Source of the DNA: Geodermatophilus sp. DSM 44513
GTDB lineage: Bacteria > Actinomycetota > Actinomycetes > Mycobacteriales > Geodermatophilaceae
Direction of reading: 5' to 3'
DNA length: 64,000 nucleotides
Assembly: GCF_032460525.1 (NCBI RefSeq)
Contig: NZ_CP135963.1
Span: forward strand, 3,472,001 to 3,536,000
Part shown: piece after piece, positions 40,906 through 52,299 of the stretch
How the letters are laid out: every line of letters begins with the position of its first letter
Position numbering within the stretch: the stretch's first letter is position 1
Translations under genes and position numbers: made by a program
The notes under the pieces: model-generated
Told to the model about the DNA's origin: nothing
What the model saw: the letters and a program-made list of their open reading frames with translations, nothing else
The model's database searches: none

Positions 40906-40982
40906 TGGTAGCGGGGACAGGATTCGAACCTGTGACCTCTGGGTTATGAGCCCAGCGAGCTACCGAGCTGCTCCACCCCGCG
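40906..40982 (-). tRNA. initiator tRNA-Met (CAU), copy 1
   Basis: 77-nt tRNA with encoded CCA. Initiator features are an unpaired first position (C1 opposite U72) and three consecutive G-C pairs in the anticodon stem (GGG and CCC around CTCATAA). The T-stem outer pair is A-U (acagg and cctgt). A TATGGT -10 lies at 40999-40994 on the minus strand. Confidence 0.95.
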
Positions 40983-40993
40983 TCGGTGAGACC

Positions 40994-40999
40994 ACCATA
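40994..40999 (-). promoter_or_regulatory. -10 (TATGGT) for tRNA-fMet copy 1
   Basis: Read on the minus strand, 11 nt before the mature 5' end at 40982. Confidence 0.5.
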
Positions 41000-41073
41000 C
41001 ACACCGCCGGACGGACGGCGGCCGAGGGCCCGGTCACCACGTGCCGGCCCGGCCGCGACCGGGGCGGGACGGC

Positions 41074-41112
41074 ACGAGACCCCGGTCCCTGCAGGAGGGA
41101 CCGGGGTCTCGT
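41074..41112 (-). terminator. terminator after tRNA-fMet copy 2
   Basis: Perfect 17-nt arms (41074-41090 and 41096-41112) with a gcagg loop, directly downstream of the tRNA on the minus strand. Confidence 0.85.
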
Positions 41113-41116
41113 GGGG

Positions 41117-41193
41117 TGGTAGCGGGGGCAGGATTCGAACCTGCGACCTCTGGGTTATGAGCCCAGCGAGCTACCGAGCTGCTCCACCCCGCG
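41117..41193 (-). tRNA. initiator tRNA-Met (CAU), copy 2
   Basis: 77-nt near-duplicate of copy 1 with the same C1-U72 mismatch and GGG/CCC anticodon stem. It differs in the T-stem, where the outer pair is G-C (gcagg and cctgc) instead of A-U. CCA is encoded. A TAGGAT -10 lies at 41210-41205. Confidence 0.95.
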
Positions 41194-51324: not shown

Positions 51325-51669
51325 TCAGGCGACCGCCTGCTTGGGCGGGCGTCCGCGGGGGCGCTTGCGCGCGATGACCGTCCCGCGCTCGAAGATCTCC
51401 CCGCCCCAGACGCCCCAGGGCTCGCCGCGGTCCAGCGCACCGGCCAGGCAGGCGTCGCGGACGGGACACTCCGCGCAGCGCACCTTGGCCTCCTCCAGTC
51501 CGGCCGGGGTCTCGGCGAACCAGAGGTCGGGGTCGGCCCGGCACGGCAGGGGACGCCGCACCGGCGCCGGCGCCGCGGGGGCCACCGGCCGTCGGGGAAG
51601 GGGAGCACCGCCGGTCCGGGGTGCACCGGCCCGGCGGTGGGACGTCGGACGGTCGGCCGTCGACTGCAC
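51325..51669 (-). CDS. whiB7: WhiB7-type antibiotic-resistance regulator
   Basis: 114-residue WhiB protein. Cluster ligands are Cys43, Cys65, Cys68 and Cys74, the turn is GVWGGEIFERG, and the C-terminal AT-hook is RGRPPK (105-110). In mycobacteria and Streptomyces it activates intrinsic antibiotic-resistance genes with the principal sigma factor. The N-terminal about 40 residues are Pro/Ala-rich and longer than in M. tuberculosis. GTG 51669; a gaggaggag ribosome-binding site precedes it. It is controlled by the long leader described at 51756-52244. Confidence 0.95.
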   Translation of the reverse strand: MQSTADRPTSHRRAGAPRTGGAPLPRRPVAPAAPAPVRRPLPCRADPDLWFAETPAGLEEAKVRCAECPVRDACLAGALDRGEPWGVWGGEIFERGTVIARKRPRGRPPKQAVA

Positions 51670-51755
51670 TGCCGCTCCTCCTCGTACTCGTCGTCGTCGA
51701 CCGGCGGGGGCCCGCCGACCGAGGGTCGGGGTCGGGTGCCGCGGAGGAGATGACA

Positions 51756-51791
51756 GAGGCCGCGGATCCCGGTGTCGGGTTCCGCGGCCTC
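51756..51791 (-). terminator. attenuator (terminator hairpin) in the whiB7 leader
   Basis: gaggccgcgga (51756-51766) pairs with tccgcggcctc (51781-51791), extended by three more pairs. In the RNA it is followed by a modest U/C run (tgtcatctcc). It lies between the upstream ORF stop and whiB7 and overlaps the antiterminator hairpin by 4 nt (51788-51791), so both cannot form at once. Confidence 0.75.
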
Positions 51792-51833
51792 GAGGAGGTC
51801 CTGTCGAGTGCTAGCTCGACGGTCTCCTCGAGG
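51788..51833 (-). promoter_or_regulatory. antiterminator hairpin in the whiB7 leader
   Basis: cctcgaggag (51788-51797) pairs with ctcctcgagg (51824-51833), and an inner stem gtcgag/ctcgac (51803-51808, 51815-51820) closes on a loop that carries the TAG stop of the upstream ORF. A ribosome finishing that ORF would cover this hairpin and let the terminator form; a stalled ribosome upstream would leave it free to form. Confidence 0.65.
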
Positions 51834-52119
51834 AGTGGAGCCCGAGGGTGGTGCCGTTGTGCTCGGTGGTGGTGCCGTACTCGGTGGTGGTGCGCACGCC
51901 GGACTGCTGCGCGCAGCCGGCGCTGCCGAAGGCGTCGATCACCGGCATCGCGGGGACGCCGGAGCCGGGGACGCCGGCAGCCGACCGCGGGGCGGTGACC
52001 GGGAGGGCGCGCAGGCGCGCGCCGACCGGCGAGCCGACGAGGTGGACGGCCGTACGCACGGCGGAGCCCGCCGGGCGGAGAGCCCCGGCGGGGGCGAGGG
52101 TCCAGGTGCTGCTGATCAC
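51811..52119 (-). CDS. upstream regulatory ORF of whiB7
   Basis: 102 codons from GTG 52119 (or GTG 52128) to a TAG at 51811-51813. ggaggagg lies 8 nt before the GTG. The peptide (VISSTWTLAPAG...) is not a known family; its end has two near-identical 18-nt units coding R/G-TTTE-Y/H. Its stop lies in the loop of the antiterminator hairpin, the arrangement expected for ribosome-mediated attenuation. The product is probably not needed as a protein. Confidence 0.6.
   Translation of the reverse strand: MISSTWTLAPAGALRPAGSAVRTAVHLVGSPVGARLRALPVTAPRSAAGVPGSGVPAMPVIDAFGSAGCAQQSGVRTTTEYGTTTEHNGTTLGLHSSRRPSS
51859..51894 (-). repeat. two 18-nt units in the whiB7 upstream ORF
   Basis: Tandem units (51859-51876 and 51877-51894), each ggcaccaccaccgag(t/c)ac or cgcaccaccaccgagtac on the coding strand, put Thr-Thr-Thr-Glu-aromatic/His runs just before the antiterminator. 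A third, partial ggcaccacc follows. Confidence 0.6.
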
Positions 52120-52205
52120 GTCGCCCACCTCCTCCGGGGGTCGGATCCCGGCCGTCGGGCCGGTCTCGGGGTCTGGCGCGCCCGGGTTCCCCGGGCGCGA
52201 TCAGG

Positions 52206-52235
52206 ACAGTAGGGGGCCGCCGTGGAGGCGGTCAA
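52206..52235 (-). promoter_or_regulatory. whiB7 promoter
   Basis: On the minus strand, -35 TTGACC (52235-52230), an 18-bp spacer and -10 TACTGT (52211-52206). The predicted start is near 52199, giving a leader of about 530 nt before the whiB7 GTG. Confidence 0.7.
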
Positions 52236-52238
52236 CGC

Positions 52239-52244
52239 AATTAA
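52239..52244 (-). promoter_or_regulatory. AT-rich WhiB7-binding element
   Basis: TTAATT lies exactly 3 bp upstream of the -35 hexamer. In mycobacteria the AT-hook of WhiB7 recognises an AT-rich stretch at this position in its own promoter. It is conspicuous in such GC-rich DNA. Confidence 0.65.
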
Positions 52245-52299
52245 CGACCGGGGTGTCGGCGTCCGCCGACCCCGGACCTCCGTGACGCGGAGTGGGGGG

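Follow-up and report, generated by a model that had tools for sequence, protein, structure and literature searches.

A predicted ribosome-mediated attenuator upstream of whiB7 in Geodermatophilus sp. DSM 44513, with indications that translation of the leader frame, not its peptide, is conserved

The leader of whiB7 in Geodermatophilus sp. DSM 44513 is very probably a transcription attenuator, a ribosome-mediated on/off switch in which a predicted outer helix between a segment of an upstream open reading frame (uORF), R1, and the upper 5' arm of the terminator, R3, would compete with the terminator itself. The whole element lies on the minus strand of a 64,000-nucleotide stretch (contig NZ_CP135963.1, positions 3,472,001 to 3,536,000; here called the window, whose numbering is used throughout) of the 4.63-Mb, single-contig genome (Table 1). 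In favor of this reading, which draws on sequence comparison and modeled folding, we count the identity of whiB7, the z-scores of two hairpins, the kept frame of the uORF and its pN/pS, the coupling of R1 with R3, the CTC-GGG codons at R1, the effect of a modeled ribosome, and the matches of a covariance model near whiB7. Against it count the equilibrium energies, a modest margin over shuffled sequences, mixed covariation, and a weak T-tract. A preliminary description of the locus had already proposed an attenuator; its gene, leader ORF, AT box, promoter, terminator, and attenuation logic were right and recur in relatives, and its antiterminator assignment proved incomplete.

With ribosomes running freely, a ribosome at the uORF stop codon would melt the hairpin that holds this codon in its loop (the stop hairpin), R1 and R3 would no longer be held together, and R3 would pair with the terminator 3' arm, R4. 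The R3:R4 terminator would then end transcription near 51750. If ribosomes were delayed anywhere upstream, R1, the stop hairpin, and R3 would form one rod as soon as R3 had been made and before R4, and RNA polymerase would continue into whiB7. WhiB7 would then activate its own promoter via the AT box.

Table 1. Features of the predicted whiB7 attenuator (window positions)
Feature	Position	Strand	Remarks
AT-rich box TTAATT	52239-52244	minus	Presumed WhiB7 AT-hook site, 3 nt upstream of -35
Promoter: -35 TTGACC (52230-52235), 18-nt spacer, -10 TACTGT (52206-52211)	52206-52235	minus	Layout recurs in relatives
Shine-Dalgarno (SD) site GGAGGAGG of uORF	52128-52135	minus	
uORF, 102 codons, GTG (52119) to TAG (51811-51813)	51811-52119	minus	Frame kept in relatives
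R1, CTCGGGCTCC, inside uORF	51837-51846	minus	5' strand of predicted outer antiterminator helix
AGA codon, fourth before uORF stop	51823-51825	minus	Rarest Arg codon of reference genes
Hairpin with uORF stop codon in loop	51788-51833	minus	Inner part of predicted antiterminator; from folding and conservation
Predicted antiterminator rod (R1 + stop hairpin + R3)	51775-51845	minus	Minimum-energy fold before terminator 3' arm exists, -43.6 kcal/mol
R3, GGAACCCGA, upper 5' arm of terminator	51775-51783	minus	Common to predicted antiterminator
Intrinsic terminator stem-loop (predicted)	51756-51791	minus	From folding and comparison
Weak T-tract	51747-51755	minus	4 T in 9 nt after stem
whiB7, 114 aa, WhiB domain and AT-hook; SD GAGGAGGAG at 51675-51683	51325-51669	minus	

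The downstream gene had been named whiB7 in the preliminary description, and its product indeed gives a Pfam Whib match (E 1e-13) and carries the AT-hook RKRPRGRPPK. Orthologues were found in 26 of 26 genomes of the genus and, at E 1e-16, in 246 of 296 genomes of the class. In one relative, an 880-aa open frame encloses a further, second WhiB7-like match with 58% identity (L028, G001:C17:2200-2514). The promoter arrangement described earlier, including its coordinates, was confirmed. The AT box lies 3 nt before the -35 element in all 48 distinct Geodermatophilus and Blastococcus leaders and is exactly TTAATT in 32 of them, in a search whose filter itself required at least four A/T in six positions. 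The position of the box in the window fits that of a WhiB7 box, and its sequence differs from GAAAWY, the consensus given for Streptomyces in the part of PMC7157823 that is available. The combined box and promoter pattern occurs at a single site in the whole genome, the whiB7 leader; a looser pattern yields one further site (L183, G000:C1:4091405-4091440), possibly another WhiB7 target. A simple consensus scan reported neither a promoter-like nor a terminator-like site at the leader, so that both calls rest on structure and on conservation among relatives.

We examined 146 whiB7 loci and used the C-terminal uORF peptide to select from them the 48 Geodermatophilus and Blastococcus leaders. A stricter promoter search provided an anchor in 47 of these, missing the promoter of L023. 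The start taken was that with the best SD site, picked without regard to frame, and start and stop were located independently. In all 47 leaders with a detected promoter the start is in frame with the stop, across 30 distinct lengths of 76 to 121 codons (228 to 363 nt); the SD match is only 4 nt in one of them (L112), and L023 has an SD-preceded in-frame start that gives 132 codons. The 102-codon ORF with its SD site, reported earlier, is thus present as described; the remark that it is unusually long is not upheld, with 76 to 132 codons in Geodermatophilus and Blastococcus. SD-predicted lengths are 85 to 132 codons in Geodermatophilus (n = 26), 76 to 106 in Blastococcus (n = 21), 103 to 134 in Modestobacter (n = 11), 105 to 109 in three Streptomyces-like genomes, 41 to 65 in the mycobacterial set (n = 16), and 37 to 130 in others (n = 38), which makes 102 codons ordinary for a whiB7 leader; the label "Streptomyces-like" and some of the "mycobacterial" labels derive from family grouping; loci L061-L140 are named. 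In other families the start was in frame in 64 of 64 determined cases (four were undetermined), a count that we excluded as evidence because stops there were chosen partly by the presence of an in-frame start. Matches to the uORF protein in 41 of 112 family genomes include matches outside whiB7 leaders and are no count of the element.

The peptide encoded by this kept frame appears free to vary. By the Nei-Gojobori method, pN/pS of the uORF is 1.30 in 26 Geodermatophilus, 1.31 in 21 Blastococcus, and 1.16 in 11 Modestobacter sequences, and 0.85 to 1.02 in shifted frames, while the WhiB7 coding sequence of the same 26 genomes has 0.23 at the same pS (0.280). As a guard against misalignment, the comparison was repeated without the final 14 codons on those pairs that share at least 78% identity (44 of 325); the values were 1.16 for the uORF, 1.01 for frame +1, and 0.18 for WhiB7. 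Third-position constraint accounts in part for the uORF values above 1, which we do not take as a sign of positive selection. GC3 of the uORF is 0.93; the uORF body is C-rich (GC skew -0.16 versus +0.06 in WhiB7) and folds more weakly than its codon-shuffled versions (mean z +1.13 over 26 sequences). Codon adaptation is 0.65 versus 0.79 (standard deviation 0.06) for 26 reference ORFs, so the uORF cannot be described simply as a succession of the fastest codons. Since the frame is kept and the body is without purifying selection, the frame would be selected and the amino acids not. Comparison of these sequences suggests that evolution preserves the translating of a long leader frame rather than its peptide, and the pattern favors a general sensor of ribosome traffic over an arrest peptide. 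With the peptide free and frame and stop position kept, the sensor would read the arrival of the ribosome at the stop, and any slowing of elongation would do. The window uORF also contains an apparent in-frame duplication of a TTTE(Y/H)(N)G stretch (51900-51812), absent from the other 25 aligned uORFs of the genus.

The alternative that fares best is that the uORF codes for a specific arrest peptide or serves as an amino acid sensor, for example of threonine, at which ribosomes stall at defined residues; we consider it unlikely. Its appeal lies in composition, with threonine at 12.3, 11.9, and 14.0% in the uORFs of Geodermatophilus, Blastococcus, and Modestobacter versus 5.7% in 26 reference ORFs and alanine at 34.9% in the mycobacterial set; in the need for WhiB7 in alanine-starved mycobacteria that is reported in the accessible portion of PMC10727445; and in a recurring C-terminal stretch, TTLGIHSPGRPxS. 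However, the body has a pN/pS of 1.16 to 1.30, and the conserved stretch coincides with R1 and the stop hairpin, uses fixed nonpreferred codons, and turns into TPGDLPPRDPLS in Modestobacter with the pairing kept. Threonine sensing as such was rejected, its one signal being composition and pN/pS giving it no support.

The R1 codons CTC and GGG occur in 46 and 47 of 47 uORFs, respectively, and neither is the preferred codon; in Modestobacter the peptide at R1 becomes PG while pairing is kept, which indicates that the constraint acts on the RNA. The fourth codon before the stop is AGA in 45 of 47 uORFs (25 of 26 in Geodermatophilus and 20 of 21 in Blastococcus), a codon used twice in 11,474 codons of the reference genes. 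In each of the five groups examined, the final eight codons show an excess of codons ending in A or T (Fisher p 0.03 to 1.6e-12, with no correction for kinship or for the hairpin). This pattern near the stop could be a side effect of the hairpin, or it could be a brake. In the window, the AGA is preceded by a second rare arginine codon, AGG. Tentatively, the whiB7 uORF might be a sequence-agnostic ribosome speedometer, in which length class, frame, open C-rich RNA, and end position are selected and the peptide is not, so that a delay at any of some 100 codons would be reported; the rare AGA four codons before the stop may then act as a brake, keeping the ribosome parked on the stop hairpin for long enough that termination is enforced in unstressed cells. 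We regard this extension as possible, and as well short of the confidence we place in the attenuator.

Both hairpins of the preliminary description were recovered. The one with the TAG in its loop, folded as 51788-51836, has -29.4 kcal/mol (z -5.28), and the terminator hairpin, about 20 nt past the uORF stop, has -32.1 kcal/mol (z -8.41); for each, none of 200 dinucleotide shuffles was as good. Both are kept in relatives, the stop hairpin being conserved and a terminator-like stem being found in each of 116 leaders by a search that takes the best hairpin per leader. The 4-nt overlap of the two (51788-51791) is likewise correct, and it had led to the proposal that they exclude each other and that this exclusion is the switch. 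That version, exactly as first put forward, has the overlap and a strong, conserved stop hairpin on its side, but we judge it quite unlikely: both hairpins are present in the minimum-energy fold of 51740-51840, where the stop hairpin yields four outer pairs, and R1 and R3 show a complementarity, coupled across families, that the two-hairpin version does not need. As the whole switch, two-hairpin exclusion is rejected on account of the joint fold.

In our model, the real competitor of the terminator is the outer helix of R1 with R3, which encloses the stop hairpin; R1 resembles R4. Before R4 exists, the window RNA is predicted to fold as the single rod of Table 1. The expected R1:R3 pairing is at least 5 nt in 60 of 60 Geodermatophilaceae leaders, and the minimum-energy fold before R4 contains at least five R1:R3 pairs in 114 of 116 leaders from all families. 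Among 47 representative leaders, uncorrected for kinship, native sets of R1 and R3 pair better than permuted ones (sum -647 versus -529 [standard deviation 15]; z -7.9; 0 of 300). When partners were swapped, the native one ranked in the best tenth in 18 of 47 leaders, in the best quarter in 32, and worse than half of the swaps in 7; for the window leader, the fraction of swaps pairing as well was 0.18. The mean duplex energy of -19.7 is modestly lower than that of mononucleotide shuffles (-16.8; standard deviation 3.7), a weak control in place of which the swap and permutation controls were used.

Folding and covariation analysis of orthologous leaders, suggested as a check in the preliminary description, gave a divided answer: R1 and R3 are coupled by permutation, and two of five covariation measures were not above shuffles. 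The covariation score and the number of cells with double changes exceeded all 500 shuffles, while pairs with double changes (183 of 500 shuffles as high) and further pair types (483 of 500) did not stand out. The outermost R1:R3 pair is U-A in 47 and C-G in 12 of 60 leaders; this change separates the 12 Modestobacter and Klenkia rows from the rest and is probably one event. No covariation was found in the terminator stem because it hardly varies, and RNAalifold, applied to the 60 Geodermatophilaceae rows, yielded no usable consensus for the antiterminator, since the register of the stop hairpin shifts among them.

At equilibrium, the terminator of the window, once just made, has an advantage of 15.6 kcal/mol (median across 116 leaders, 16.4), which means that antitermination would have to be kinetic, with the antiterminator folding first. 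A modeled ribosome at the stop increases the preference for the terminator to 26.2 kcal/mol in the window (median 22.5), raises it in 108 of 116 leaders, and lets the terminator form in 113 of 116. The model still permits at least five R1:R3 pairs in 99 of 116 leaders with the ribosome there, so that steric blocking of R1 itself does not follow from it. When more downstream RNA is included, the gap in the window falls to about 2 to 3 kcal/mol (-59.3 versus -57.6; 3.2 in a second calculation) because R4 finds a downstream partner. A CCGCGG in the downstream sequence (51740-51755) can pair with the terminator 3' arm once the antiterminator has formed, stabilizing the read-through RNA.

The T-tract bears on another reading, that control is mainly Rho dependent or translational, with an anti-SD-like CCUCCUC (51793-51799) able to mask the whiB7 SD and the intrinsic terminator playing a minor part. 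The tract is weak here (the median is five T over the 48 Geodermatophilus and Blastococcus leaders), and CGAGGAGG, around the whiB7 SD, has its complement in CCTCCTCG (51792-51799). We nonetheless give this reading little chance: the terminator-like stem is present in each of the 116 leaders, CCTCC is no general feature of this arm, where other families have CTCCAGG and the like, and complementarity of CCTCC to an SD is expected by chance. As a separate observation, the match between this part of the stop hairpin and the whiB7 SD region (51675-51684) might represent a second layer of translational control, or chance. That the ORF is a functional small protein cotranscribed with whiB7 is highly improbable, for despite its SD site, GC3 of 0.93, and conserved frame, its peptide is without purifying selection, belongs to no Pfam family, has no NCBIfam match better than E 0.52, and ranges from 76 to 132 codons.

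A covariance model built from 50 leaders finds one place in the genome of the window (both matches fall at the same terminator) and matches 115 of 148 genomes of the class, including some that were sources of training sequences. Among the matches listed (110 best matches and 149 whiB7 places), the best match lies at most 800 nt from whiB7 in 73 of the 73 genomes for which both are given. Rfam 15 gave two tRNAs only across the window; at 51660-52260 it gave only mir-976 on the other strand, scoring 21 bits (E 0.37) where the gathering score is 100, which we take as chance. Two tRNA-Met(CAT) genes lie near each other on the minus strand at 40906-41193.

A uORF-containing attenuator and autoregulation have been described for whiB7/wblC in the accessible text of several papers (PMC11550727, PMC10727445, PMC12121999, PMC12421871, PMC13393426, PMC13236596, PMC4128351, and PMC7157823), two of which (PMC11550727 and PMC10727445) set out the same attenuation logic; the general mechanism is already published for WhiB7/WblC. 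As expected of such attenuators, we found a leader uORF with its own SD and a frame that appears selected (its translation is predicted), a predicted antiterminator built from uORF and terminator sequence, and, between uORF and whiB7, the predicted stem-loop of an intrinsic terminator, with a weak T-tract. The WhiB7/WblC attenuator of Lee, Lee and Roe (2022) and Burian and Thompson (2018), as relayed in the available parts of PMC11550727, PMC10727445, PMC12121999, PMC12421871, and PMC13393426, shares with the present element the uORF, the intrinsic terminator, the downstream whiB7, the antiterminator drawn from uORF and terminator sequence, and the autoregulated promoter. In contrast to its description in the excerpts of these later papers, here the upper terminator stem would pair (UCGGG-UCC with GGA-CCCGA), the uORF has 102 codons, and the T-tract is weak.

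The mycobacterial whiB7 5' untranslated region, in the portion of Dinan 2014 at hand (PMC4128351), is alike in its promoter about 350 nt upstream, its SD and uORF, and a stem-loop with a U-rich tail, 3' of the uORF, at which attenuation occurs. Mycobacterial whiB7 uORFs have 41 to 65 codons and are Ala-rich (16 loci of this data set), whereas that of the window has 102 and is Thr-rich. Attenuators of ABC-F resistance genes, per the available text of PMC12421871, likewise shift RNA from terminator to antiterminator when a ribosome stalls on the uORF, but theirs are very short with stalling at the start codon, while the whiB7 uORF is long and its peptide nonconserved. The ilvB1 leader of Mycobacterium tuberculosis, as partly seen in PMC13236596, resembles the switch proposed here in that a ribosome at the stop leads to the terminator and an upstream stall to the antiterminator; unlike amino acid attenuators of that type, whiB7 uORFs are without a conserved run of codons for one amino acid.

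What is new is the predicted outer helix in the Geodermatophilus lineage, together with the evidence for conserved translation over peptide. No earlier report of conserved translation rather than peptide of a whiB7 uORF was found in the open-access literature, a scope outside which the primary whiB7 papers fall, and the available part of a 2025 paper (PMC12121999) calls stalling within the whiB7 uORF untested. The analysis supplies a covariance model for an actinomycete whiB7 leader RNA that is without an Rfam 15 match in the window, and a corrected, predicted antiterminator for this leader. These results bear on how many unrelated translation inhibitors can be sensed by a single leader ORF. 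If the frame is kept and the peptide free, recoding the uORF body would leave induction unchanged, and shortening the uORF or shifting its frame would alter it.
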